From contig NZ_CP017415.1 of NCBI RefSeq assembly GCF_001753245.1, forward strand, positions 3,466,040 through 3,530,039: a stretch of 64,000 nt of DNA, read 5' to 3'. Below, in pieces: positions 11,165-52,808 of this stretch. The translations under genes and the position numbers were made by a program. The notes under the pieces are model-generated. The model was not told where the DNA came from. It ran no database searches and saw only the letters and a list, made by a program, of their open reading frames with translations. This stretch comes from Acidihalobacter yilgarnensis. Lineage in GTDB: Bacteria; Pseudomonadota; Gammaproteobacteria; DSM-5130; Acidihalobacteraceae. Position 1 is the first letter of the stretch. Every line of letters begins with the position of its first letter.

Positions 11165-14005
11165 GTGACCGATTACAAACAAACGCTCAATCTCCCGAGC
11201 ACCGACTTCCCCATGCGCGGCGACCTCGCCCGGCGCGAGCCCGAAACCCTCGCACGTTGGGCCGAGTTGGACATTTATCATCGGCTGCGCAAGGAACGCG
11301 CGGGACGCGAGCGTTTCATCCTGCACGATGGCCCGCCCTACGCCAACGGCGATATTCATATCGGCCACGCGGTGAACAAGGTCCTAAAAGACATCATCGT
11401 CAAGAGCCGTAGCCTCGACGGCCTCGACGCGCCCTACGTGCCCGGCTGGGACTGCCACGGCTTGCCCATCGAACACAAGGTGGAGCAGACCGTCGGCAAG
11501 GTGGGCGAGGGCATCGACCCGACCGCCTTCCGCAAGGCCTGCCGCGAATACGCCGCCGGCCAGATCGAGGGTCAGCGACGCGACTTCAAGCGCCTGGGGA
11601 TCATCGGCGACTGGGATGCGCCTTATCTGACCATGAACTTCCGCACCGAGGCCGACATCATCCGCGCCCTCGGCCGCACCATAGCGCGTGGCCATGTGAT
11701 CAAGGGTTACAAGCCGGTGCACTGGTGCGTGGACTGCGGCTCGGCGCTGGCCGAGGCCGAGGTCGAATACGAAGACAAAACCTCGCCGGCGATCGACGTT
11801 CGCTTCACCGTCGTCGATCCCGAAGGCTTGCTCGCGCGCTGCGAAACCGAGGGCACGGGCTCCGGCCCCCTGTCGGTGGTCATCTGGACCACCACACCGT
11901 GGACCCTGCCGGCCAACCAGGCCGTGGCCCTGCACGCCGAACTGGAATACGCAGTGATCGACTGCAAGGGTCCGAACGGCCAAGAACGCCTGCTGCTGGC
12001 CACCGAGCTCGCCGAATCCGCCCTACAGCGCTGGGGCATCGAGACCTGGCACATCGTCGCCCGCTGCCGCGGCGCCGACTTGGAACATCTGCGACTACGT
12101 CACCCCTTCATCGAGCGCGAGGTACCGATTATCCTCGGCGAGCACGTCACCCTCGACGCCGGTACCGGCGCCGTGCACACCGCTCCCGGCCATGGCCAAG
12201 AGGACTACGTCGCCGGCCTTCGCTACGGGCTCGATGCCGATCATCCCGTTGGCTCCGATGGACGCTTCCGTGAGGGCACACCGTATTTCGCGGGCGAACG
12301 CGTATTCGAGGCCAACACTCACGTCATCGAGGTGCTGCGCGAGCGCGGCGCGCTGATGCATGCCGAAAAGCTGCGCCACAGCTACCCGCATTGCTGGCGC
12401 CACAAGACCCCGCTGATCTTCCGCGCCACGCCACAGTGGTTCATCAGCATGGACAAAGAAGGGCTTCGTCAGACCGCGCTCGACGCCTTGCCCGACATCC
12501 AGTTCACGCCCGAATGGGGCCGCGACCGTCTCGCCGGCATGGTGGCCAACCGCCCCGACTGGTGCATCTCCCGCCAGCGCAACTGGGGCGTGCCGCTGGC
12601 CCTGTTCGTGCACCGCGAAACTGGGGCGCTGCACCCCGATACCCCGCGCCTGGTCGAGGCCGTCGCCGAACGCGTCGAGCAAAGCGGCGTGGACGCTTGG
12701 TTCGACCTTGATGCCACCGACATCCTCGGGGCCGAAGCCAGCGACTACGAAAAGGTCACCGACATCCTTGACGTGTGGTTCGACTCCGGCACCACCCACG
12801 CCAGCGTGCTCGACCGCCGCCCCGAACTGGGCTTTCCCGCGAACCTCTATCTCGAAGGCTCCGATCAGCACCGCGGCTGGTTCCAGTCCTCGCTGCTCGC
12901 TTCTGTAGCGATGCGCGGCGTTGCGCCCTACCGCGGCGTGCTCACCCACGGCTTCACCGTGGACGAGAAGGGCCGCAAGATGTCCAAGTCGCTCGGCAAT
13001 ACGGTCTCGCCGCAAAAGCTGTTCAATAGCCTTGGCGCGGACATCATCCGTTTGTGGGTTGCCTCCGGCGACTACCGCCGCGAGATCGCCGTCTCCGACG
13101 AAATCCTCAAGCGGATGTCCGACGCCTACCGGCGCATCCGCAACACCGCGCGCTTCCTGCTCGCCAACCTCGTCGGTTTCGACCCGACCACCAATCTCAT
13201 CGCGCCCGCGGATCTGCTGCCGTTGGATGCCTGGATCTGCAGCCGCGCCGCCGCCCTGCAGACCGAGTTGCGCGAAGCCTATACACGCTACGAATTCCAC
13301 CTGATCTACCAGAAGGTACACAACTTCTGCTCGGTCGAGCTGGGCTCGCTGTATCTCGACATCATCAAGGACCGCCAGTACACCACCCAGGCGGACAGTC
13401 TGGCGCGGCGCTCGGCGCAGACCGCGCTATATCACCTCGCCGAGGCACTACCGCGCTGGCTAGCGCCGATTCTGAGCTTCACGGCAGACGAAATCTGGCG
13501 TCACCTGCCGGGTGAGCGTGCCGAATCCGTCCTGCTCGCCACTTGGTATGAATTCCCGGCGGGGCTGGCAGACGGCAGCGTGCTGCCCGCGGCCATGGGA
13601 CCGGATTACTGGGAGGCAGTGATCGAGGTGCGCGAGATCGTCAACAAGACCCTCGAAACCTTGCGCAAGGACGGGGCCATCGGCGCCAATCTCGATGCCG
13701 AGGTCACCTTGTTCTGTGGCGAACGGACCGCCGACCTGCTCGAACGTCTTGGCGAGGAACTGCGCTTCGTGCTCATCACCTCCGAGGCAACCGTCAGTCG
13801 TGCGCAGGCCCCCGCCGAGGCCACAGCCCAAGCGCTCGCCAACGGCGAAACGCTGCACCTGCTCGCCATCGGCAGCGCCCACACCAAGTGCTCGCGATGC
13901 TGGCACCACCGGGCCGATGTCGGCACCGATACAACCCACCCAGAATTGTGCGGCCGCTGTATCGAAAACATCGCCGGCAGCGGCGAGACTCGGCACTTCG
14001 CATGA
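11165..14005 (+). CDS. ileS: Isoleucyl-tRNA synthetase
   Basis: Class I aminoacyl-tRNA synthetase charging tRNA-Ile. The 946-residue protein starts at GTG and shows the HIGH motif ([10 protein letters not shown]), the class I editing domain, the KMSKS loop ([10 protein letters not shown]) and a C-terminal zinc site with CSRCW and CGRC. This architecture is the bacterial eubacterial-type IleRS. Its stop overlaps the lspA start as ATGA, so the two are translationally coupled. Confidence 0.98.
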
Positions 14006-14469
14006 AGCGCCGAGGCCTGCATTGGCTATGGCTGAGCGTAGCCGTCATCGGCTTCGACCAGCTGAGCAAGTGGCTGGCGCTGCAGGGGCTACCCTACGGC
14101 CAGCCCCTGTCGATACTGCCCGGCTTCAACCTCACGTTGGTATTCAACACGGGCGCGGCCTTTAGCATGCTCAGCGGCGCAGGCGGCTGGCAGCGCTGGC
14201 TGTTCATCGCTCTGGCCATGATCGTCGCCGTGACACTGATCACTTGGCTGGCCCGGCTCGGACCACGCGAACGCTGGGCCGGCGCCGCCGTGTCGCTGAT
14301 CCTTGGCGGCGCGCTGAGCAACGCCCTAGACCGCATCCTGCGCGATCACGTGATCGATTTTATCGACGTCTACTATCACCAATGGCACTGGCCGGTCTTC
14401 AACCTGGCGGATTCCGCCATCACCCTAGGCGCGGCCATACTGGTCGCGCGTACGCTATTCCGCCGCTGA
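14002..14469 (+). CDS. lspA: Lipoprotein signal peptidase
   Basis: Aspartic protease of the inner membrane that removes signal peptides from prolipoproteins. From ATG 14002 the product is 155 residues with four hydrophobic segments. Catalytic aspartates are in NALDRIL and NLADSAI, and [10 protein letters not shown] is a conserved family stretch. It overlaps ileS by 4 nt. Confidence 0.96.
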
Positions 14470-24321: not shown

Positions 24322-25278
24322 CTATGCTCGAAGCGGCTTCATTTCGTTATTATCATCCGCTTCGTCGTCACCATCCTGTAAACCGAAGGCCTTGCGGCTC
24401 TCGCGTTCCAGCAGATCCAGGCACTGACCCTTGAAACGGCCGAAGCGCGGGTCGGTCAACGCCCGTACGTTGCGGGGACGCTCCATGTCTACCTTGATTT
24501 CGGAAATCACACGGCCGGGTGAGACGCCCATGATCAGAATCCGGTCAGCCAGCAGCACGGCTTCATCGATATCGTGCGTCACGAACAGCACCGTCGGCTT
24601 GAGCTGCTCCCACAATTCGAGCAACCCATCCTGCATCACCAGCCGCGTCTGCGCGTCGAGTGCCCCGAAGGGTTCGTCCATGAGCAGCACGCCAGGATAA
24701 TTAGCCAACGCTCGGGCGATCTCGACTCGGTGCTGCATGCCACCTGAAAGCTGGGAGGGATAATGATCGGCGAATTTACTCAAGCCGACCATCTCCAGGA
24801 ACGTTCGTGCAATGCCTTCAGTCGTTGCCTTACTTTGACCACTCATTTTTGGACCGAACTCAATATTTTCCTGGACGGTTTTCCAAGGAAATAGCGTGTG
24901 CTGCTGAAACACCATCCCCCGCTGCGGATCGGGGCCGGTTATCGGTTTACTATTTACCAGTACACTGCCAGTACTTGGCTTCAAATAGCCCGCGACCAGG
25001 TTCAACACCGTCGATTTACCGCAGCCGCTGGGCCCCAGCAGAGCCACGAATTCACCCGGTTCGACATGCATGGTCAGGGAAGAGAGAATCGTTTTCCTCC
25101 GCTTCTCTGAACCAAAGGCTACCGACGCTTCATCTAGCGTGATTGAAGCTTGAAAAAAACTGCCGCTTCGCTTGGCCGATTCGCCATGTTTGCCGTTCAA
25201 GGCCACCACCTGTGGTGAGCTAATCATCGTCGTGCCTCTCATTTCGGTTCGTAAACGAGGTTTAACGCAGCGGGCCAT
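24322..25278 (-). CDS. ABC transporter ATP-binding protein (NitT/TauT type)
   Basis: ATPase of an importer in the nitrate/sulfonate/taurine group. From ATG 25278, which lies 3 nt beyond the permease stop and follows GAGGTG, it is 318 residues. Motifs are Walker A GPSGCGKST, Q-loop MVFQQHTLFPWK, signature LSGGMQHRVEIARAL, Walker B VLLMDEPFGALD and switch His in FVTHDIDEAV. An extra ~50-residue N-terminal segment and an acidic C-terminal tail (DGDDEADDNNE) are unusual. It is the last gene of the gntR-AprAB-like cluster. Substrate unknown. Confidence 0.9.
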   Translation of the reverse strand: MARCVKPRLRTEMRGTTMISSPQVVALNGKHGESAKRSGSFFQASITLDEASVAFGSEKRRKTILSSLTMHVEPGEFVALLGPSGCGKSTVLNLVAGYLKPSTGSVLVNSKPITGPDPQRGMVFQQHTLFPWKTVQENIEFGPKMSGQSKATTEGIARTFLEMVGLSKFADHYPSQLSGGMQHRVEIARALANYPGVLLMDEPFGALDAQTRLVMQDGLLELWEQLKPTVLFVTHDIDEAVLLADRILIMGVSPGRVISEIKVDMERPRNVRALTDPRFGRFKGQCLDLLERESRKAFGLQDGDDEADDNNEMKPLRA

Positions 25279-25280
25279 GA

Positions 25281-26141
25281 TCACCTCTGTTCTGGTGGCA
25301 CCCAACGCAGCAACAGCCGGGCCGTCAGTTTCACCAAACTGGTCGAGAGCGTACCCAATACACCGATCGTGAGCATGCCGACCACCACATCTGGATATCG
25401 GATCAGCTCGTACGACTCCCAAGTGAAGTATCCGATGCCATACTGGCCACTGATAATTTCACCTGCCAACAGGGAAAACCAGGACACGCCCATTCCCACG
25501 GCAAGGCCCGTTGAAATGCTCGGTAATGCGGACGGCAGTATTACGTGTCGCAAAATGGAGATACGCTTAGCGCCGAGTGTAGCCGCTGCGCGAATTAGCA
25601 ACTCAGGCGTCTGTCTTACTCCCTCCATGGTATTGATCGCAATGGGGAACACGGCTCCCAGAAACGTAATGTAAATGATACTGGCCTCATTCGTCGGCCA
25701 CATAATTATAGATAACGGAATCCATGCGACGGCAGGAATAGGGCGCAATATTTCGATATACGGGAGAATGATATCTCGGGCCAACTGCGAACGGCCCATC
25801 GCGATACCCGCTATCATTCCGATCACTACCGCTAAAAAAAATGAGATGCCGATTCTGCGCAAGCTGGTGCCGATATCGATATAAAACGTCTTCGTGCCGA
25901 GTAAATGATAAAACTGCTGACCGACTTGGACTGGTGTCGGCAGATTATTGAAATTCAAGATAAACTGCACACCTTTTACGGTCAATATCTGCCAGATCAC
26001 CACACCGACGACCAACGAGAGAATCTGTACAGCGTGGCGCTTCAGCCTCGCCCACAATAATTCCTTGTCCAAGTCTAAAAATTTACGAACGACCACATTG
26101 TAATCCGTCTGCACATTGCTGCTCATTACGTCACCCACCAT
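25281..26141 (-). CDS. ABC transporter permease (NitT/TauT type)
   Basis: Inner-membrane subunit of the same importer. The 286-residue protein has about six hydrophobic segments and the BPD_transp_1 EAA-like loop (RAAATLGAKRISILRHVILPSALP). ATG 26126 (MSSNVQ) is an alternative start. An intercistronic hairpin (26158-26183) separates it from the binding-protein gene, and the ATPase start overlaps its end region. This stretch is visibly richer in A and T than the flavoprotein genes upstream, which may mean a separate origin. Confidence 0.9.
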   Translation of the reverse strand: MVGDVMSSNVQTDYNVVVRKFLDLDKELLWARLKRHAVQILSLVVGVVIWQILTVKGVQFILNFNNLPTPVQVGQQFYHLLGTKTFYIDIGTSLRRIGISFFLAVVIGMIAGIAMGRSQLARDIILPYIEILRPIPAVAWIPLSIIMWPTNEASIIYITFLGAVFPIAINTMEGVRQTPELLIRAAATLGAKRISILRHVILPSALPSISTGLAVGMGVSWFSLLAGEIISGQYGIGYFTWESYELIRYPDVVVGMLTIGVLGTLSTSLVKLTARLLLRWVPPEQR

Positions 26142-26231: not shown

Positions 26232-27608
26232 TTAAGCCATCGCCTTGGCAATTTCCGCGAACGTCAGCACCTTACCTGCATGTACGCTGGCATATTGATC
26301 GGCTTCATTCTTGAGCATGAAGGTACTGACCGACTGACCACTCATCACGTAAAAGGCGTCCTTGCCAAAAAGCTTTAGACCGGTTTTCTGATCGTACACA
26401 TAAGTCGCGTCGACTTTTTTACCCAATTTCTCATAATGCTCGTAGCCCTTAAGCATTTCAGTCGTGTTCGAATAGTGGTGCATCGGTTCGCCATTGATCC
26501 AAATTTCGTCTGGCAGATGAATATTTTCCTTCGGGTGGTAGAAAGTCTTGAGCTGCGTCTCGTAATTCAGCCCGAGCTTCTTGTAGGCCGTCTCTAAATA
26601 CTGTGGCGCAGCCCATGTCTTGAAGTTGAGTGGCGGCATGTTGGCGTACTTCATCAAAACTTTGTGGTCGTAGGCTAATGTTTTGATGAATTTAGGTTTG
26701 AAGGTCGGATCGGGGGTCAGATAACCGCCCTTGCTGAAGTAGAGATACAGTACTTCCTTGGGAATCATCGTCCACTTGGAGATCATTTTCGCGGCGTGTT
26801 GCGGATCATCCTGCACCCACTGACCGGCCTTGATCAGCGCCTCGAGATAAGCGACGACGACTTCAGGATATTTTTCGGCGAAGGATTTACGCACCACCAC
26901 ACCGTGCAGATAGGGGATGCCGGCCTCGGCGCCGTTGTAGATCATGCGACCGGTGCCCTTGTATTCCATCAGCTCGGACATTGGACAGAAGTCTGCATGG
27001 GCGGCGATCTTGTTATTCGCAATCGCCGCGATACCAACCATCGGGCCCTGATTGATCATGTGGAAATAATCCTTGGGCAGATGCTTCTCCTTCATCATGT
27101 TGAAGAGCATGCCCCAGGCTGCGCTGCCCACCGGCACCGACACGGTCTTGCCCTTGAGCTGATCGACGCTGTAGATGTCGGATTTGGTCGGCACCACGAT
27201 GCCGTTGCCGGCGCCGTCGAGGTTGTAGGCGGTGAACGAGATCATCAGCGAACGCTCGCCGCGCGTCTGCTGAAATTTCGCGCCGTTGACCACCAGCGGG
27301 TAATCACCCATCACGCCAAAAGCGAGCTTGCCGGCGATCATCATGTTGGTGATCGGGCCACCGGACATGTAATTACGCCAAACGATCTTGTATTTGACGT
27401 CCTTGTATTTACCGTCGTGCGGCAGATACTTGGGCAGAAGTTTCAGCCCGCGGATGATGGTACCGCCCTGATACGTGTCGGTGCACATATTCTGGATGCC
27501 GATACCGATCGTGATCGTCTTGCTGTACGCAGGCGCTGCGGCGACACCTGCTGCGGCGCAAAGCGCCATCAGCGACGCGCGCACCTCATTTTTCCCCAGC
27601 ATTCGCAT
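26232..27608 (-). CDS. ABC substrate-binding protein with NosL-like C-terminal domain
   Basis: Periplasmic solute-binding protein of the NitT/TauT group (SBP_bac NMT1-like). From ATG 27608 (GGGAGG at 8 nt) it has 458 residues, beginning with a signal peptide (ALCAAAGVAAAPAYS, cleavage probably after AYS). The NMT1-like core includes GGTIIRGLKLLPKYL, DQLKGKTVSVPVGSAAWG and GVVVRKSFAEKYPEVV. The last ~65 residues (YVYDQKTGLKLFGKDAFYV, then ADQYASVHAGKVLTFAEI) resemble NosL, the copper-binding accessory protein of nitrous oxide reductase. The fusion is longer than TauA/SsuA. It may need a metal or deliver one; this is inference. Confidence 0.85.
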   Translation of the reverse strand: MRMLGKNEVRASLMALCAAAGVAAAPAYSKTITIGIGIQNMCTDTYQGGTIIRGLKLLPKYLPHDGKYKDVKYKIVWRNYMSGGPITNMMIAGKLAFGVMGDYPLVVNGAKFQQTRGERSLMISFTAYNLDGAGNGIVVPTKSDIYSVDQLKGKTVSVPVGSAAWGMLFNMMKEKHLPKDYFHMINQGPMVGIAAIANNKIAAHADFCPMSELMEYKGTGRMIYNGAEAGIPYLHGVVVRKSFAEKYPEVVVAYLEALIKAGQWVQDDPQHAAKMISKWTMIPKEVLYLYFSKGGYLTPDPTFKPKFIKTLAYDHKVLMKYANMPPLNFKTWAAPQYLETAYKKLGLNYETQLKTFYHPKENIHLPDEIWINGEPMHHYSNTTEMLKGYEHYEKLGKKVDATYVYDQKTGLKLFGKDAFYVMSGQSVSTFMLKNEADQYASVHAGKVLTFAEIAKAMA

Positions 27609-31493: not shown

Positions 31494-31509
31494 ACATGTC
31501 ATGACATGT
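31494..31509. promoter_or_regulatory. 16-bp perfect palindrome between ferredoxin and giant flavoprotein genes
   Basis: ACATGTCATGACATGT overlaps the ferredoxin stop codon and lies 37 nt before the flavoprotein ATG. Its core TGTCATGACA also forms the core of the palindrome at 7045-7058. It may be an operator or a processing hairpin. Confidence 0.4.
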
Positions 31510-31850
31510 TAGGCATCAACGAAACTTCCGGCATCCAGAAATTGTCGCTTACCTTCCAACTCAGCCCAGCGCTCCGCCTCCGGCAACGGCTCGTGGCTGG
31601 TCGCGATGATCGGCCAACGCTTGGCGAGGTCCGCATTGATCGCGTGGAAGTCGGCGAATTCCGTCGGCAAGTCGCCTTCGGCATAGATCGCCTCCACCGG
31701 GCATTCGGGCACACACAGGGAGCAGTCGATGCACTCCTCCGGATCGATCACCAGGAAATTCGGTCCCTCGTGGAAGCAATCCACCGGGCACACGTCCACG
31801 CAGTCGGTATATTTGCAGCGGATGCAGTTCTCGGTCACCACGTATGTCAT
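31509..31850 (-). CDS. fdxA: 7Fe-type ferredoxin (FdxA-like)
   Basis: Small electron carrier. From ATG 31850 the protein has 113 residues and begins [17 protein letters not shown]. The first Cys set (C-x2-C-x4-C-x3-CP) and the second ([12 protein letters not shown]) match 7Fe [3Fe-4S][4Fe-4S] ferredoxins, as does the C-terminal tail ([21 protein letters not shown]). It sits between the HEAT protein and the giant flavoprotein and is the likely electron shuttle of the cluster. Confidence 0.9.
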
Positions 31851-31920: not shown

Positions 31921-32874
31921 TCAGCCAATCTTGCTCAACGCCCAGGCCGCCAACTTGCGCACGTCTGGGTCCTCGTCGTTGAGCGCAACTTCCAGGTACG
32001 GCCTCGCGGAAACATCCGCGATTTCGCCCATCGCGCCGACGATTTCCTTACGCAGGTTACTGATTGGGTGCGCGAAGGCCGCGCCGAGGGCATCCACCGC
32101 CGCCGGATTACCCAGCTGCCCCAGGCTGCAGGCCGCCTTCTGCCGCACCTGCCAGTAATCGTCGTCAAGTGCGTCGATCAACGCGTCCATAGCCGCCACG
32201 ATATGCAGTCGACCGATCACCTGCGCGGCCTCCTCGCGCACCAACCAGTCAGCGTCGGCAACTGCGTGCACCAACGTCTCGTGCACGTGACCGCCGTCCG
32301 CAAACACCAACGCACCGACGGCGGCGCGGCGGACTTGCGCGTCCGGATCATTGCGCACCACACCGAGCAGCGCCGGCAGCACGGTCTCGGACTTCAAATA
32401 AGCCAGTACGCCCACGGCCTCTCTTCGCACCTGCACGTTGTCGCTGCCGAGCGCGTTCATCGCCGGCTCCAGCGCCTCGCGCACGCGCAACGGCTTGATC
32501 GCGCGCAGCAACGCGGCCTTGGCGAAGGGATCGTGAGTGGCCAGACCGCTCAATAGGAACGGCGCCGCATCGACCGACTTGATCTCGGACAAGGTCTCAG
32601 CGGCAGAGATCCTCACCGCCTCGTTCGCGTCAGACAGCGAGGCGATCAGCGCCTCCACGCCGTCCACCGTGTCGAATTCGTCAAGCACGCGCGCCGCCTC
32701 GGCGCGCACGTCTGCGTTCGCGTCGCCCAGCGCCTGTACCAACAGACCGACCGCGTCCGGATCCGCCGTTTCGCCGATGCGAAGCACCGCCATACGGCGC
32801 ACCGCAGCGTCGTCACTCTCCAGTCGCGTACGAATATCCTCGAGATCCGGGGAAATATCGAAAAGCATGGCCAT
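31921..32874 (-). CDS. HEAT-repeat protein
   Basis: A 317-residue protein made almost entirely of PBS-lyase-type HEAT repeats about 31 residues long. Units share the pattern D-x-VR-xx-A-xx-L (for example [43 protein letters not shown]), about nine copies from residue 20 to the end. No catalytic motif is visible. Such solenoids act as scaffolds or in cofactor-lyase roles. It lies between the AprB-like ferredoxin (9-nt gap) and FdxA, so it is a candidate assembly scaffold or chaperone for the redox complex. Confidence 0.88.
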
Positions 32875-32883
32875 AGAGACCTC

Positions 32884-33117
32884 TCAGCGCAGCAAATAAG
32901 GGATGTTCACCGTCACCGCGCCGGTCGGGCAGTCGACCTCGCACGGCGTGCAGTACCAGCACTCGTCGTACTTCATATAGGCCTTCTGGGTGATGCTATC
33001 GACCACCAGCACATCCAGTGGGCAGACATCCACGCATACGGTGCAGCCTTTGTCGGCGATGCATTTTTCGTTGTCCACGATGACCGGGACGCTGGTGTTG
33101 GTTTGGGCAAGCGGCAT
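32884..33117 (-). CDS. AprB-like 2[4Fe-4S] ferredoxin subunit
   Basis: A 77-residue ferredoxin with eight cysteines in two motifs: CIADKGCTVCVDVCP (C-x5-C-x2-C-x3-CP) and CWYCTPCEVDCP. The enlarged first loop, the aromatic CWYC and the end GAVTVNIPYLL resemble AprB, the electron-transfer subunit of adenylylsulfate reductase, but without its C-terminal tail (AprB is about 150 residues). It is 15 nt downstream of the AprA-like gene, so the two probably form a heterodimer. Confidence 0.87.
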   Translation of the reverse strand: MPLAQTNTSVPVIVDNEKCIADKGCTVCVDVCPLDVLVVDSITQKAYMKYDECWYCTPCEVDCPTGAVTVNIPYLLR

Positions 33118-33132: not shown

Positions 33133-34872
33133 TTACTGTGCAGTGGCGGCGATGCGCAGGTTGTCGTAAGCCTGGGTCTCATCCTCATCCAGCTCGACCA
33201 CGTAGGGGTCGATCGGACGCTTAAAGCAGGTCATTTCTCCATTCTCGTTTTGTTTGACCTGGACGTGGCAGAACCAGTCGTCCTGGTTACGCTCGGGGTA
33301 ATCGACGCGATAGTGGTACAGACCCCAGCGGCTTTCGGTGCGGTACAACGAGGCTCGCGCCGCCATTTCCGCGCAGTCGAGAATGGCGTGCACCTCCATC
33401 GCGCGCATCAGTTCGTGCGGGTCTGACGCCGCCAGCATGGCCATGTCGTCGCGGATCTCCATAAACCGGTCGAGGCCGATTTCCATCTTCGTGGTGACCT
33501 TCGGCGGCTGCAGGTAGTCGTTCACCATGCGACGCAGCTTGTATTCCATCTGGTACGGCGTGATGCCGTCGGCGACCGTCAGCGGCGCCTGGATGCGCGC
33601 GGTCTCTGCGGCGATCTCGGCCTCGTCCAGTGTCGGCATATCCACCCCGGCGCAGTAATCCGCCGCATCGTGGCCAGCGATCTCGCCGTAGACGAAGGCA
33701 CCGAGCATGTAGTTGTGCGGTACGCAGGCTAGGTCACCGGCGGCATACAGCCCCGGCACCGTGGTGCGCGCGTGTTCATCGACCCAAACCCCGGATGCGC
33801 TATGCCCGCTGCACAGACCGATTTCCGAGATGTGCATCTCAACCATGCGTTCGCGGTAATTCGTCCCGCGCCGTTCGTGGAAGCGTCCTCGGCTCGGGCG
33901 CTCGTTGCTATGCAGGATGGTCTCGATCTCCTGGATCGTCTCCTCGGCGAGATGGTCGAGCTTGAGGAACACCGGGCCCTTACCGCCCTCCAACTCGCGG
34001 TAGAACTCCAGCATCATCTGCCCGCTCCAGTAATCGCATTCGATGAAACGGTCGCCCTTGGAGTTGGCCGTGTAGCCGCCCAGCGGGCCGGTCACGTACG
34101 CACAAGCCGGGCCGTTGTAGTCCTTGATCAGCGGGTTGATCTGGTAGCACTCGATACCCGACAGCTCCGCGCCCACACGGTAGGCCATGCTGTAACCATC
34201 GCCGGCGTTGGTCGGGTTCTCATAGGTGCCGAACAGATAACCGGAGGCGGGCAGGCCGAGGCGCCCCGCCGCGCCCGTCGCCAGAATCACCGCCTTGGCG
34301 CGGATCACCGCGACCTCCGCGGTGCGACTGTTGACCATCATCGCACCGGCGATACGCCCACTGGCATCCTTGAGTAATCGGGTGACCACGTAGCGGTTGA
34401 CCACGTCGACACGTTTGCGGCGCAGTTGGCGGTACAGGATTTTCTTCATGTGATGACCCTCCGGCATGGGCAGCACATAGGTACCCATGTGGTGGACCTT
34501 CTTCACGCTGTAATCGCCGGTCTCATCCTTCTCGAACTTCACGCCCCAGCTGTCGAGTTTGTTAATCATGTCGAAGCTGCGCGTCGCGTAGGCCATCACC
34601 GTTTTCTGGTTGATGATGCCGTCGTTGGCCACCGTGATTTCCTTCACATACTGCTCAGGCGTCGCGTGGCCGGGGATGATGGCGTTGTTCAGCCCGTCCA
34701 TCCCCATGCTGATCGCGCCGCTGCGCTTGACGTTGGCCTTCTCCAGGAGCGTCACGCGCAACTCGGGATTACGCTCCTTGCTGGCCACAGCCGCCATCGG
34801 CCCAGCCGTGCCACCACCGATGACCAAGACATCCGTATCGAAGATCTCTGCTGGCGCTGATGCGACATTCAT
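33133..34872 (-). CDS. AprA-like / fumarate-reductase-family flavoprotein
   Basis: Flavoprotein of the FrdA/SdhA/AprA superfamily, 579 residues. FAD-binding VLVIGGGTAGPMAAV is at residues 16-30. Later features are ERMVEMHISEIGLCSGHSAS, TTVPGLYAAGDLACV and PHNYMLGAFVYGEIAG, which correspond to the active-site and FAD-capping regions. The partner is an AprB-like ferredoxin and there is no SdhB/C/D, so it resembles adenylylsulfate reductase alpha more than succinate dehydrogenase. It is shorter than canonical AprA, and residues for AMP binding cannot be confirmed here. No sat or qmo gene is adjacent, arguing against classical sulfite oxidation. Its substrate is unknown. It follows gntR by 19 nt. 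Confidence 0.83.
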   Translation of the reverse strand: MNVASAPAEIFDTDVLVIGGGTAGPMAAVASKERNPELRVTLLEKANVKRSGAISMGMDGLNNAIIPGHATPEQYVKEITVANDGIINQKTVMAYATRSFDMINKLDSWGVKFEKDETGDYSVKKVHHMGTYVLPMPEGHHMKKILYRQLRRKRVDVVNRYVVTRLLKDASGRIAGAMMVNSRTAEVAVIRAKAVILATGAAGRLGLPASGYLFGTYENPTNAGDGYSMAYRVGAELSGIECYQINPLIKDYNGPACAYVTGPLGGYTANSKGDRFIECDYWSGQMMLEFYRELEGGKGPVFLKLDHLAEETIQEIETILHSNERPSRGRFHERRGTNYRERMVEMHISEIGLCSGHSASGVWVDEHARTTVPGLYAAGDLACVPHNYMLGAFVYGEIAGHDAADYCAGVDMPTLDEAEIAAETARIQAPLTVADGITPYQMEYKLRRMVNDYLQPPKVTTKMEIGLDRFMEIRDDMAMLAASDPHELMRAMEVHAILDCAEMAARASLYRTESRWGLYHYRVDYPERNQDDWFCHVQVKQNENGEMTCFKRPIDPYVVELDEDETQAYDNLRIAATAQ

Positions 34873-34891: not shown

Positions 34892-35656
34892 TTAACGACG
34901 TTCGATACGCAGACGGTATTGATAGGCTTCGCCGATGTAGTACAGGTGCTCGTAATCGATCGGGGTGCCGTCCCGAGTGGACGTGAGGCGTTCCATTCGC
35001 AAAATCGGCGCGCCGGATTCGATGGCCAACAACTCGGCCTCTCTCTCGTCCGCCACCGTTGCGTTGATCACGATATCGGCCGCGCCCAGCGGCAAGGCGT
35101 AATCGTTTTCCAGGATGACGAAGATGTCACGTGTTTCCAGATCCTCATCCATGAGCCGCCGGCCGATATCCAGCGAGAAGTAGCTGATGTCCAGCGAGAT
35201 CGGCGAACGGTTCAGGTAGCGAACCCGCTCGATCTCAACCACCGACGTGTCGCGGCTCAACTGCAGCGCACGCGCAACCTCACTGCTCGCGGGCATTTCG
35301 CGGACACCGATCAGTCGCGAATAGGTCTCGTAGCCCTTGCTGTTCATCGCCTCGCCGAAACCCTCCAGACGGGTCAAGTCCTGCACCGCCTTCGGCTTGG
35401 TGACGAAGCTGCCCTTGCCCTGGATCGTGAACACCAGACCTTCCTTCTGCAGATCACGGATCGCCTGACGCGCCGTAATCCGGCTCACGTCGAACAGCGC
35501 CATGAGTTCGCTTTCCGACGGCAACTTGCTATGTGGCGGATAACTGCCATCCAGAATTTTCTTGCGCAGCATGTCCTTGATCTGGCCGTACAGCGGAATC
35601 GGCGACACCAGCTTCAGGCCACCTGCGCCCAACTTCGTGTCTTCGTGCTTCGTCAT
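34892..35656 (-). CDS. GntR-family regulator (HutC/FadR-C UTRA type)
   Basis: Transcription factor of 254 residues. An N-terminal winged helix (LPSESELMALFDVSRITARQAIRDLQKEGLV, motif in parts) is followed by a UTRA ligand-binding domain with the typical ERVRYLNRSPISLDISYF and SGAPILRMERLTSTRDGTPIDY segments. UTRA domains bind small effectors, so it probably senses the cluster's substrate or product. It is the first gene of the minus-strand cluster, and its promoter region carries candidate operator sequence, so autoregulation is likely. Confidence 0.92.
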   Translation of the reverse strand: MTKHEDTKLGAGGLKLVSPIPLYGQIKDMLRKKILDGSYPPHSKLPSESELMALFDVSRITARQAIRDLQKEGLVFTIQGKGSFVTKPKAVQDLTRLEGFGEAMNSKGYETYSRLIGVREMPASSEVARALQLSRDTSVVEIERVRYLNRSPISLDISYFSLDIGRRLMDEDLETRDIFVILENDYALPLGAADIVINATVADEREAELLAIESGAPILRMERLTSTRDGTPIDYEHLYYIGEAYQYRLRIERR

Positions 35657-49583: not shown

Positions 49584-50903
49584 TCAACCGTAATCGAGGG
49601 CGCCCTCGCCCCCGCCCGGATCCTCGAGGCTCAATACCTCGGCGTCATCGTCGTAGGCGAAGATTTCGGCGTAGCGCCCCCAATTGATGACCACGTCGAG
49701 CACGCGTTGCGATTCGTCGTCACTCAGGCTGTCCTCCAGCTCGGCCAGAAACCGCTCTGCGGGTGCGCGGTGGTTGGGGCGCTCATCGAGCACGCTGCGG
49801 ATGTGCGCGGCCAACGGAATATGTTTGAGCAGCTGACGTGCGAATACCGCCTTGCGTTCCTGGGTATCGCCGTTGACGTAGCGCCGGCCGATGGTGGTCA
49901 ACGCGATCTGTCCCTGCACGACCATGGCCAGATCCAGAATCTCCAGCGACTCGACCAATGGAAACAGGTCGTCGACCGAGAGCTGCATGTCGTCCGCAAG
50001 ATCGGGGAGGCTGATGAAGCGCTGCCCCGACGTCTCGCTCTCCGCGTCGATGGCCTCGATCAGGCCGGCCAAGCGATTGATCGCCGCCGTGGGCAATCGA
50101 TAACTCACGCCCTCGGCGCGGCGCGGCGCCTCCGGCCCACGCCGGGTCATAATCGCGTATATCTCCTCAACCAGGCGACGGAATTCCGGGGCCTGGCGGT
50201 TGCGCGGCTGCGGTAGGCGCACCGGAATTTCGGCCGCCACCCGCCCTGGATTGGAGGCGAAGATGATGATGCGATCGGCCATCAGCACGGCCTCCTCGAT
50301 ATTGTGCGAGACCAGCAAAATACCGCGCAGCGGGATCTGGCGTGCCTCCCACAAGTCCAGCAGATCGGTGCGCAGATTCTCGGCGGTCAGCACGTCCAGC
50401 GCGGAAAAGGCCTCGTCCATCAACAACACGTCGGGATCGACCACCAACGCGCGCGCAAAGCCGACTCGTTGACGCATGCCGCCGGAAAGCTCGCGCGGGT
50501 AAGCCGACTCGAAGCCATCGAGACCGATCAGGTCAATGGCCGCCAAGGCGCGGCGCAGGCGCTCGGCACGCGGCACGCCACGCGCCTCCAGCCCCAACTC
50601 CACGTTCTCCAGCACGGTCAACCAGGGAAACAGCGCGAAACTCTGAAACACCATGGACAGCCCAGGCACCGGGCCGGTTACCGGGCGGTCGCGGTAGATC
50701 ACCTCGCCACCGGTAGGCGGCACCAATCCCGACATGATCCGTAACAGGGTCGACTTACCCGAACCCGAGCGCCCGAGCAACACCAAGATTTCGCCCTCAT
50801 GCAGGCATAGATCGACACCGTCGAGAATCTTCAAATCCTCGCCGTCCGGGCTCTTGAAGGCCTTCTGCACACCATTCAGGCGCAGGATTTCCGTGGCAGT
50901 CAT
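49584..50903 (-). CDS. ABC ATPase with AAA-associated C-terminal domain
   Basis: A 439-residue NitT/TauT-type ATPase. The N-terminal ABC domain has Walker A GRSGSGKST, signature LSGGMRQRVGFARAL, Walker B VLLMDEAFSALD and VSHNIEEAVLMADRI. Residues from about 265 onward form an extra domain (IDLDDDMQLSVDDLFPLVES-like region; QIALTTIGRRYV) matching the AAA-associated C-terminal domain found in this subfamily, which resembles a winged helix and may be regulatory. It begins 15 nt below the paired permease. Confidence 0.9.
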   Translation of the reverse strand: MTATEILRLNGVQKAFKSPDGEDLKILDGVDLCLHEGEILVLLGRSGSGKSTLLRIMSGLVPPTGGEVIYRDRPVTGPVPGLSMVFQSFALFPWLTVLENVELGLEARGVPRAERLRRALAAIDLIGLDGFESAYPRELSGGMRQRVGFARALVVDPDVLLMDEAFSALDVLTAENLRTDLLDLWEARQIPLRGILLVSHNIEEAVLMADRIIIFASNPGRVAAEIPVRLPQPRNRQAPEFRRLVEEIYAIMTRRGPEAPRRAEGVSYRLPTAAINRLAGLIEAIDAESETSGQRFISLPDLADDMQLSVDDLFPLVESLEILDLAMVVQGQIALTTIGRRYVNGDTQERKAVFARQLLKHIPLAAHIRSVLDERPNHRAPAERFLAELEDSLSDDESQRVLDVVINWGRYAEIFAYDDDAEVLSLEDPGGGEGALDYG

Positions 50904-50917
50904 AGCGTGTACCCTCC

Positions 50918-52636
50918 TTAGTCGAGCCGCCAGCGCGTCTCGGCGAACTGATAGAGACGATGCCAGACGAAGCGATTGATGGTGATGACGAACAGCGCCA
51001 TGACACCGGTGCCGAGCACGACGTGACGCACGTCACCGCGTGCGGTGGCCTGAGCGATGTAGGCACCGAGCCCGGTGGCAACCAGCGTATGGTTACCCCA
51101 GCTCACGACCTCGGCGACGATGCTCGCGTTCCAGGCGCCACCCGAAGCTGTGATCGCTCCGGTGACGTAGGATTGGAACACACCGGGGAACAAGAGCCTG
51201 CGGAAACGCAGCCACCCGCTCAATCCCAGGTTGCGCGAGGCTTCCTTCAGATCCGAGGGCAGGGCCGCCGCGCCACCGACGACGTTGAACAGGATGTACC
51301 ACTGGCTACCGAGGATCATCAGCGGACTGACCCAGATGTTCACGTTGAGGTGGAACCCGACGATCCCCACCACGACCAGCGGGAACAGCAAATTCGCGGG
51401 GAAGGCGGCCAGGAACTGGGCCAATGGCTGAATCCGCTGCGCCAGGCGCGGGCGTAAACCGATCCAGATACCGATCGGCACCCAGACAACGCTGGCCAGC
51501 ACCACCAACGCGAACACACGCAGCGCGGTAGCACCACCGAGCATGAAGACATGCGCAACCTCGCCCCAACCATAATCGCGCGGGATGATGCGCCACATTT
51601 CGATCAGCGTGGCGACCACGGCCAGCGCCAGCACCAGATTGAAGGCCAAGTCAGGCCAACGCCGGACGCGTTGGTCTGCGGGCTCTGGGAATGTTTTCGG
51701 TCGACTACCCAGACGCAAACTGGCCTGCCAGAACACGCCTGGCACCACCGCCAACAAGCGCATGATCCGTGTCCGCTTGATGAAATCGAGCACCGCCGAT
51801 TCCGGTGCCGTGGACGAGGCGCTGCTCTCGAACTTGAACTTGTCGGCCCAGGCCACCACCGGGCGGAATAACAGCCAGTCGTAGAGCAGGATCACCAACA
51901 ACATGGTCAGGATGGCCCAGCCGATCGCACCCAGATTACGCTGCTGGATGGCCAGCGCGATATACGAGCCAACGCCGGGCACCATGATCTGATGCCCGCC
52001 GACCGTGATCGCCTCGGCCGCGACCACGAAGAACCAGCCACCAGACACCGACATCATGGTATTCCACACCAATCCGGGCATGGCATAGGGTAATTCCAGG
52101 CGCCAGAAGCGCAACCAGGGCGAAAGTTGATAGGTCGCCGAGGCCTCGCGCAAATCACGCGGCACCGTCTTGAGCGAGTGATACAGGCTGAAGGCCATGT
52201 TCCAGGCCTGCGAAGTAAACACCGCAAAGATCACCGCCATCTGCACACCCCACAGGCTGCCGGGGAACAAGGCGACGAAACCAGCCACGGTAATCGACAG
52301 ATAGCCGAGGATCGGCACCGATTGCAGCACATCGAGCGCCGGCACCAGGATGCGCTCGGCATAGCGGTTTTTCGCTGCCAGGGTGGCGTAGACGAGCGAA
52401 AACAGCAGCGACAAACCCAGCGCCGCCGCCATTCGCAGCACCGTATACAGCGCATAACCGGGCAGCGCCAACGGCGACAAGCTGATCGGCAACGGCTGCC
52501 CGATGACATACGGCGCACTCATGCGCCCGCCAGCCCAGGCCACCAGATAGATCAGCCCGAAGACCAGTGGCAACGCGATCAGATCGCGGCGATTGGGCAA
52601 TGGCAGCCGGGCGGGCAACGATGGAAGCTGGGCCAC
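50918..52636 (-). CDS. Fused ABC permease (two BPD_transp_1 domains)
   Basis: A 572-residue inner-membrane protein made of two tandem binding-protein-dependent permease domains, about residues 60-280 and 330-560. EAA-type loops are REASATYQLSPWLRFWRLELP and KEASRNLGLSGWLRFRRLLFP. GTG 52636 with AGGAG 10 nt upstream is preferred; an ATG at 52669 lacks a Shine-Dalgarno. One polypeptide supplies both membrane halves, so the complex would be permease plus two ATPase chains. No binding protein is adjacent, which is unusual for an importer. Substrate unknown. Confidence 0.88.
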   Translation of the reverse strand: MAQLPSLPARLPLPNRRDLIALPLVFGLIYLVAWAGGRMSAPYVIGQPLPISLSPLALPGYALYTVLRMAAALGLSLLFSLVYATLAAKNRYAERILVPALDVLQSVPILGYLSITVAGFVALFPGSLWGVQMAVIFAVFTSQAWNMAFSLYHSLKTVPRDLREASATYQLSPWLRFWRLELPYAMPGLVWNTMMSVSGGWFFVVAAEAITVGGHQIMVPGVGSYIALAIQQRNLGAIGWAILTMLLVILLYDWLLFRPVVAWADKFKFESSASSTAPESAVLDFIKRTRIMRLLAVVPGVFWQASLRLGSRPKTFPEPADQRVRRWPDLAFNLVLALAVVATLIEMWRIIPRDYGWGEVAHVFMLGGATALRVFALVVLASVVWVPIGIWIGLRPRLAQRIQPLAQFLAAFPANLLFPLVVVGIVGFHLNVNIWVSPLMILGSQWYILFNVVGGAAALPSDLKEASRNLGLSGWLRFRRLLFPGVFQSYVTGAITASGGAWNASIVAEVVSWGNHTLVATGLGAYIAQATARGDVRHVVLGTGVMALFVITINRFVWHRLYQFAETRWRLD

Positions 52637-52808
52637 GTGCGCGGATCTCCTGTGGGGCCATACAGCCATGGCGCGGGTGGGATGTCTTGTCCCGCGGCGT
52701 TTTGCTTATGTCGGGCGCCGCGCGCATCGACCCGGTTGGGCGGGACGAGACCGCGTGCGGCGGGCGCCCTTTATAGCCGTGGGGAATCCCAGATACAAGC
52801 CCCTCGGC

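Follow-up and report, generated by a model that had tools for sequence, protein, structure and literature searches.

A NosL-like C-terminal domain lacking the NosL copper ligands recurs on SsuA/TauA-type binding proteins encoded beside AprAB-like genes

The binding proteins of ABC importers usually comprise two lobes and nothing further. In the window analysed here, the whole 64,000-nucleotide stretch of Acidihalobacter yilgarnensis DNA from contig NZ_CP017415.1 (positions 3,466,040 to 3,530,039), one gene encodes such a protein with a C-terminal tail that resembles NosL, the copper chaperone of nitrous oxide reductase, and this raises the question of what a domain of that kind contributes to an importer, and whether it brings a metal with it. 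The fusion of a periplasmic binding protein to a NosL-like C-terminal domain, as proposed in the first-pass annotation, is borne out by the reading frame and by matches to NMT1 and NosL (Table 1), and the motifs by which the tail had been recognized are present as named (YVYD, residues 403-406; AFYV, 418-421; GKVLTF, 445-450). The plus strand of the same interval is interrupted by stops, and the gene itself is the sole match to the 458-residue protein at E<=0.001 in the 3.57 Mb, one-contig genome. No lipobox Cys was seen by eye in the region of the signal peptide.

Table 1. Coordinates, within the window, of the binding-protein gene, its predicted parts and the neighboring genes.
Feature	Position	Strand	Basis
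Binding protein with NosL-like tail, 458 aa	26232..27608	minus	ORF list and Pfam
Likely Sec signal peptide, about residues 1-29	27522..27608	minus	by eye, inference
SsuA/TauA-type (NMT1) substrate-binding domain, about residues 28-345	26574..27527	minus	Pfam, NCBIfam and PDB matches
NosL-like domain, residues 353-457 by Pfam; core predicted to start near residue 366	26238..26552	minus	Pfam, tail profile, predicted fold
ABC ATPase, start codon uncertain, listed ORF overlaps permease	24322..25422	minus	ORF list and NCBIfam
ABC permease	25281..26141	minus	TauC, NtrB, SaoP and SsuC models, all below cut-offs
Large FAD/NAD(P) oxidoreductase, GltD-like, PRK06567-type, 1163 aa	28011..31502	minus	577.8 bits, below cut-off 1072; Pyr_redox_2
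FdxA-type ferredoxin	31509..31850	minus	NCBIfam FdxA_Protbact 157.8 bits, over cut-off 135
HEAT-repeat protein	31921..32874	minus	Pfam HEAT_2 5.6e-51
77-aa two-cluster ferredoxin, AprB-like	32884..33117	minus	PDB 3gyx_B and 1jnr_B (AprB), second and fourth of 26 matches
AprA-like FAD flavoprotein (PRK08275)	33133..34872	minus	1076.9 bits, over cut-off 587; PDB 8a8o_A 1.1e-64
GntR/UTRA regulator	34892..35656	minus	Pfam UTRA 3e-37, GntR 1.2e-21

Within the binding domain, Pfam NMT1 is matched at residues 132-272 (E 9.8e-11), and NMT1 together with NMT1_2 is matched at E<=1 in all 32 family members compared below. The domain also matches the PDB structure of SsuA (3uif, E 2.3e-16) and NCBIfam SsuA_fam (E 1.9e-27), the latter with 96.2 bits, below its cut-off of 163.5; the taurine-binding model scores 64.8 bits, below its cut-off of 304.25. 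Two cysteines of the window protein occupy conserved loops of this domain, Cys42 (loop residues 39-46, window 27471-27494) in 5 of the 32 copies and Cys208 (loop residues 204-210, window 26979-26999) in 7, the other copies having Thr or Val there, and a Cys45 is found in 11 other copies. Cys42 and Cys208 possibly form a disulfide or contribute to a thiophilic pocket.

The tail is almost certainly homologous to the NosL domain. The profile search suggested in the first-pass annotation gave a significant match to Pfam NosL (PF05573; E 2.9e-5, 24.8 bits, just above the gathering cut-off of 24), which spans residues 353-457 and profile positions 17-130 of 131, so that the resemblance proposed earlier is real and the extent given for it, the last ~65 residues, is too short. 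That the match goes beyond chance is argued by the agreement among family members, fused proteins, tail profile and PDB chains. At a lax limit of E<=1, Pfam NosL is found in 26 of the 32 family members, the window protein counted, with a best E of 1.7e-8. Against the curated NosL cut-off, the fused proteins of 24 whole genomes score over it in 15 cases (3 on the stretch itself, 12 only when adjoining frame parts are counted) and below it in 2, with no match at E<=0.01 in the remaining 7. A profile built from the tails only, run over 299 genomes, matched 27 of them, namely 14 through fused proteins (E<=6.6e-31) and 13 at non-fused places (E 2.2e-9 to 2.9e-5); 11 of these 13 are Pfam NosL matches over cut-off, and the other 2 (G505, G582) stood outside the Pfam comparison. 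The same profile recovered NosL chains from the PDB, the best being 7og7 (E 9.2e-5). One stop lies inside the aligned stretch in G239, from the full-length search of class genomes, and in G377, from the search with the tails-only profile.

Structure prediction leads to the same family. AlphaFold2, given the tail alone with three relatives, yielded a model with mean pLDDT 88.3 and pTM 0.78 (67.6 to 88.3 across five models), in which the two-part fold of NosL is predicted to be present. In a Foldseek comparison of the predicted tail with the PDB, the top five rows were all NosL (E 1.7e-4 to 8.4e-4), the sixth having an E of 0.3. VIA-align placed NosL 7og7 at Z 10.5 over 96 residues and NosL 2hpu at Z 8.2; MerB came second among the structural matches, its highest Z of 7.9 falling just short of the value of 8 below which the tool advises caution, and the third family, ERH, reached a Z of at most 4.6. 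Prediction of the full-length protein gave a poor model (mean pLDDT 39.9) that could not be used for the binding domain. Matches of the tail to NosL and then to MerB agree with the common fold that excerpts of PMC4999995 describe for NosL and the MerB catalytic domain.

The fusion is widely repeated. We assembled 31 relatives, of which 3 come from MAGs labelled Planctomycetota or Bacteroidales, 4 from 369 genomes of the class, 19 from 398 genomes of the phylum and 5 from plasmids; with the window protein these make up the set of 32, which leaves out copies of the window gene (L001, L002, L017) and an interrupted A. caldus copy (L011). The plasmid search matched 174 records, 40 of them covering at least 80% of the query, and 11 plasmid stretches were taken (six via that search, one by accession and four from matches of that search and a further one), 5 of which entered the set. 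Taken over 36 loci, a single open frame is found in 35, and the tail is present in all 35, as the first-pass annotation had proposed to check for other copies of the cluster; at the 36th, on plasmid pTcM1, the binding-protein gene is split by the insertion sequence ISAtc1. On A. caldus plasmids the gene is either split by ISAtc1 or ends at it (L057, pTcM1, 17.7-20.3 kb; L011, pLAtc3, 11944-14114).

Full-length searching at the limits used (E<=1e-60 for the class, 1e-50 for the phylum) favours tail-bearing proteins. As a control for this bias, a profile of the binding domain only was run over 249 genomes; it matched 13 of them at E<=1e-35, in each case through a tail-bearing ORF that the phylum search had already found (E<=1.5e-144). 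No tail-less relative appeared at E<=1e-35 in this control, whose genomes overlap those of the phylum search and which scored 9 candidates per genome at most. Some copies also have SsuA-type paralogues with weaker scores (31 to 75 bits) nearby, which the counts do not include. Records bearing the fusion are labelled Pseudomonadota, Planctomycetota and Bacteroidales, the last being a 4 kb MAG contig that is maybe misassigned, and a scan of viral_contigs found no relatives. In a tree of the family the outgroup was very distant (end branches 8.6 and 10), and the root was disregarded. Identity to the window protein is 28-41% in the tail (31 relatives) as against 41-68% in the binding domain (16 relatives), and four tail residues, Trp370, Gly410, Lys412 and Ala436, are invariant in all 32. 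Among the literature matches listed, judged by title and opening of the abstract, none describes a fusion of NosL with a binding protein or of NosL, MerB and TRASH domains, and the matches listed for the gene set, judged in the same way, likewise hold no description of the fusion.

Excerpts of PMC6530538 name two conserved features of NosL, the CXM motif and another Met that is invariant. When the 32 tails were aligned with 20 NosL proteins, the Met residues of CXM, of DM and of GGMG were each found in 0 of 32. The comparators are the best-scoring 20 of the genome Pfam NosL scan, extracted by a pattern that required CXM-type, FS/FC-type and GMG-type motifs and that yielded one protein at each of 20 loci; the presence of CXM and GMG in 20 of 20 comparators is accordingly by construction, and the DM Met, also present in 20 of 20, lies outside the pattern. 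The Cys of CXM is kept in 12 of the 32 tails, the window tail not among them, and a second Cys (alignment column 55) occurs in the same 12, where the two may form a disulfide. The window tail contains no Cys, C.M is found in none of the 32 tails, and across relatives the tails hold 0 to 5 Met and 0 to 6 His (counted from residue 330 on). Judged from these aligned residues, a NosL-type copper site is absent from all 32 tails, and we are confident that the window protein is without one; it is possible that a metal is held by other residues of the tail.

Neither does the genomic setting point to copper. The features listed for 11 annotated plasmid records, whose gene tables are incomplete, include nothing named as a nos or copper gene. 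Other metal genes occur in these records, for arsenic in two, for cadmium in one and for chromate in one. In the window genome neither of the NosZ models finds a match, and no further NosL scores over cut-off. NosZ was found over cut-off in 3 of 24 genomes with TIGR04244 and in 0 of 24 with TIGR04246, and in those 3 genomes a separate NosL adjoins NosZ on a contig other than that of the fusion. The first-pass annotation had seen in the tail a metal-binding module, a claim that finds no support, given the missing NosL Met ligands, the Cys-free window tail and the unconserved Met and His. It had gone on to propose a copper-coordinating sulfur compound as the ligand, or a metal complex as the importer's cargo. 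With the NosL ligands gone and no nos genes accompanying the fusion, we dropped import of copper or of a metal complex as the main interpretation. Two absences had been named in advance as telling against the earlier idea, that of a NosL match and that of conserved metal ligands: the match is significant, and metal residues of the NosL kind are not conserved.

In the window the genes for permease, ATPase, GltD-like protein, FdxA, HEAT protein, ferredoxin, flavoprotein and GntR regulator all lie on one strand. We scored the neighborhoods of 23 genome copies, 20 kb apiece except for one stretch of 17 kb, with limits of our own setting: permease and ATPase genes occur at all 23 loci, and those for AprA-like flavoprotein, 77-residue ferredoxin and HEAT protein at 22 each. 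Accessory genes are more scattered, with GBBH-like_N/DUF971 at 18 of the 23 loci, GntR at 12, a Crp-type regulator at 11, ferredoxin-NADP reductase at 9, FdxA at 7 and the GltD-like protein at 2. The AprA-like protein, 77-residue ferredoxin, HEAT protein, permease and ATPase occur together at 22 of the 23 genome loci and at 33 of all 36; the exceptions are L063 (a genome) and L013 (a Paraburkholderia plasmid), which have no AprA-like gene within about 10 kb, and L005, which is only 4 kb long. GBBH-like_N has no match in the window, the single one of this genome being located elsewhere. Two Planctomycetota copies show, by eye, a sulfotransferase-looking ORF between flavoprotein and importer (L004, 7059-8261; L006, 4439-5587). 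The window also holds a second ABC system (49584-52669), in which the permease is 583 aa long and the ATPase bears a long extension at its C-terminus.

The flavoprotein and the 2x[4Fe-4S] ferredoxin are homologous to the AprAB components of APS/PAPS reductases, the closest PDB chain to the flavoprotein being the alpha subunit of Methanothermococcus PAPS reductase (8a8o_A, 1.1e-64), followed by AprA (8.6e-46). The Arg of AprA FRFKD and of LRVKD in the Methanothermococcus enzyme, which we take to bind substrate, aligns to a Leu in the window flavoprotein, whose own motif QINPLIKDYNGP (LIKD at the aligned site) is invariant in 34 of 34 copies, the window counted. Other motifs invariant in all 34, KVHHxGxYVLPMP and CSGHSASG, likewise belong to this family itself and are unlike those of APS/PAPS reductases. 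Because the aligned Arg is replaced by Leu, the reaction is probably not the reduction of APS or PAPS as such. We therefore set aside plain APS/PAPS reductase activity for this flavoprotein, to which the homology is clear and from which the aligned motif differs (background in excerpts of PMC10322725).

Several features place the importer near sulfur metabolism. The nearest families of its binding domain are the sulfonate and taurine binders, with scores below cut-off, and further genes of organosulfur type lie nearby in 4 of the 11 annotated plasmid records, the other 7 showing none. Alkanesulfonate monooxygenase belongs to the LLM class, and LLM-class oxidoreductases occur in one of the four; another has an aliphatic sulfonate ABC system near the fusion, a third an arylsulfatase, a formylglycine-generating enzyme and SulP, and a fourth an NtaA/DmoA-type monooxygenase with an NrtA/SsuA-type ABC system. 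On the Paraburkholderia plasmid L013 (9917-17121), in a stretch without an AprA-like gene, the tail-bearing importer adjoins the arylsulfatase, formylglycine-generating enzyme and SulP. For plasmids of the pAca1.1 family, PMC12375680 predicts two operons for organosulfonate uptake and assimilation, and the legend to its Figure 6 names a ferredoxin/APS reductase/GntR module and an ABC NirT/TauT sulfonate transporter on pAca1.1, pTcM1 and pTC-F14. We consider it fairly likely that the system imports a sulfur compound; because the binding domain falls far below the cut-offs of the sulfonate and taurine models, the ligand could nevertheless lie outside sulfur chemistry.

Drawing these lines together, we favour a composite proposal, inferred as to ligand, tail role and flavoprotein reaction, that we hold with about even expectation of its being right or wrong: the system imports an anionic organosulfur compound, and the tail of the binding protein, of NosL/MerB fold, serves for docking or as a lid now that its copper site is gone. 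The SsuA/TauA-like domain would capture the anionic ligand, for which a sulfonate or a sulfate ester is likeliest, and pass it to the permease/ATPase pair encoded by the adjoining genes. The C-terminal domain, as a NosL descendant without the copper site, would most likely serve for docking toward the permease or as a lid over the cleft, a role for which the likelihood falls a little short of even. In the cytosol, the AprAB-like FAD/4Fe-4S enzyme would probably act on the compound; the HEAT protein is its putative assembly or scaffold partner, and FdxA and the GltD-like protein are candidate electron carriers. A broader version, in which an ABC importer captured a copper-chaperone fold as a metal-free accessory (for permease docking, or as a second organosulfur pocket) and serves a widespread sulfur pathway whose AprAB-like enzyme acts on a new substrate, seems to us rather doubtful.

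Other roles for the tail have to be weighed against this proposal. That it binds copper, the cargo of the importer being a metal complex or a sulfur compound that coordinates copper, would accord with the reality of the NosL homology, with the cysteine pair of 12 tails and with Cys42 and Cys208, whose conserved binding-domain loops could be thiophilic; the loss of the Met ligands from every tail, the Cys-free window tail with its unconserved Met and His, the 11 annotated records naming no nos or copper gene, and a window genome with neither NosZ nor another NosL over cut-off make it very improbable. The tail might instead be a second site for ligand binding or sensing, a MerB/NosL-type pocket for an organic or organosulfur ligand that gates delivery to the permease. 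MerB, an organometal-binding enzyme, shares the fold and is the second structural match, and the four invariant residues could be read in the same sense, but these may be structural, and we regard a pocket of this kind as distinctly unlikely. MerB, an organomercurial lyase, works with a catalytic Cys pair, and the window tail has no Cys of that kind; MerB activity of the tail was rejected on this ground.

A plainer alternative is that the tail is a mere stabilising or dimerising appendage kept by descent. It is more variable than the binding domain and its NosL ligand residues have decayed, as would suit such an appendage; its retention in every one-frame locus, under Pseudomonadota, Planctomycetota and Bacteroidales labels alike, argues the other way, and on balance this explanation appears unlikely.

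From a wider perspective, a third domain descended from a copper chaperone recurs here on binding proteins, which suggests that the NosL/MerB fold is reusable once its metal site has been lost; as a corollary, such proteins should not be annotated as copper-related. The gene set as a whole (tailed binding protein, permease, ATPase, AprAB-like pair, HEAT protein and often GBBH-like_N) is carried on chromosomes and plasmids of diverse bacteria, and its parts resemble several known systems. With NosL (PF05573), the nitrous oxide reductase copper chaperone, the tail shares a homologous domain and, in the predicted model, the fold over about 96 residues (Z 10.5), but it differs in lacking the CXM, DM and GGMG ligands, in its fusion to an ABC binding protein, in having no nos genes named beside it and in showing no lipobox by eye. 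SsuA/TauA-type (NMT1) proteins have a like binding domain and matching permease and ATPase neighbors; the window protein departs from them in a C-terminal extension of about 110 residues, which holds the NosL-like domain, and in scores far below their cut-offs. To the AprAB APS reductase and the Methanothermococcus PAPS reductase (8a8o) the flavoprotein and ferredoxin are related by homology, with a different residue at the aligned Arg motif.

An analogous pairing is found in the SAO (Sec-assisted organometallic) system, described in part in the review PMC13188914, in which a SaoX/SaoP/SaoA importer goes with the MerB-like SaoL: there too an ABC importer of the same superfamily is associated with a MerB-like protein, whereas here the NosL/MerB fold is fused to the binding protein and is without Cys. 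Membership in SAO was rejected, all three models scoring below their curated cut-offs (SaoX 33.6 against 300, SaoP 135.4 against 295 and SaoA 243.1 against 360 bits). Also alike in gene content is the organosulfonate module of A. caldus pTcM1, treated in a section of PMC12375680 that does not mention NosL; although its binding-protein gene, unlike that of the window, is split by ISAtc1, the module comprises the same kinds of genes, namely GntR, AprA-like, 77-residue ferredoxin, HEAT, FdxA, GltD-like and ABC genes.
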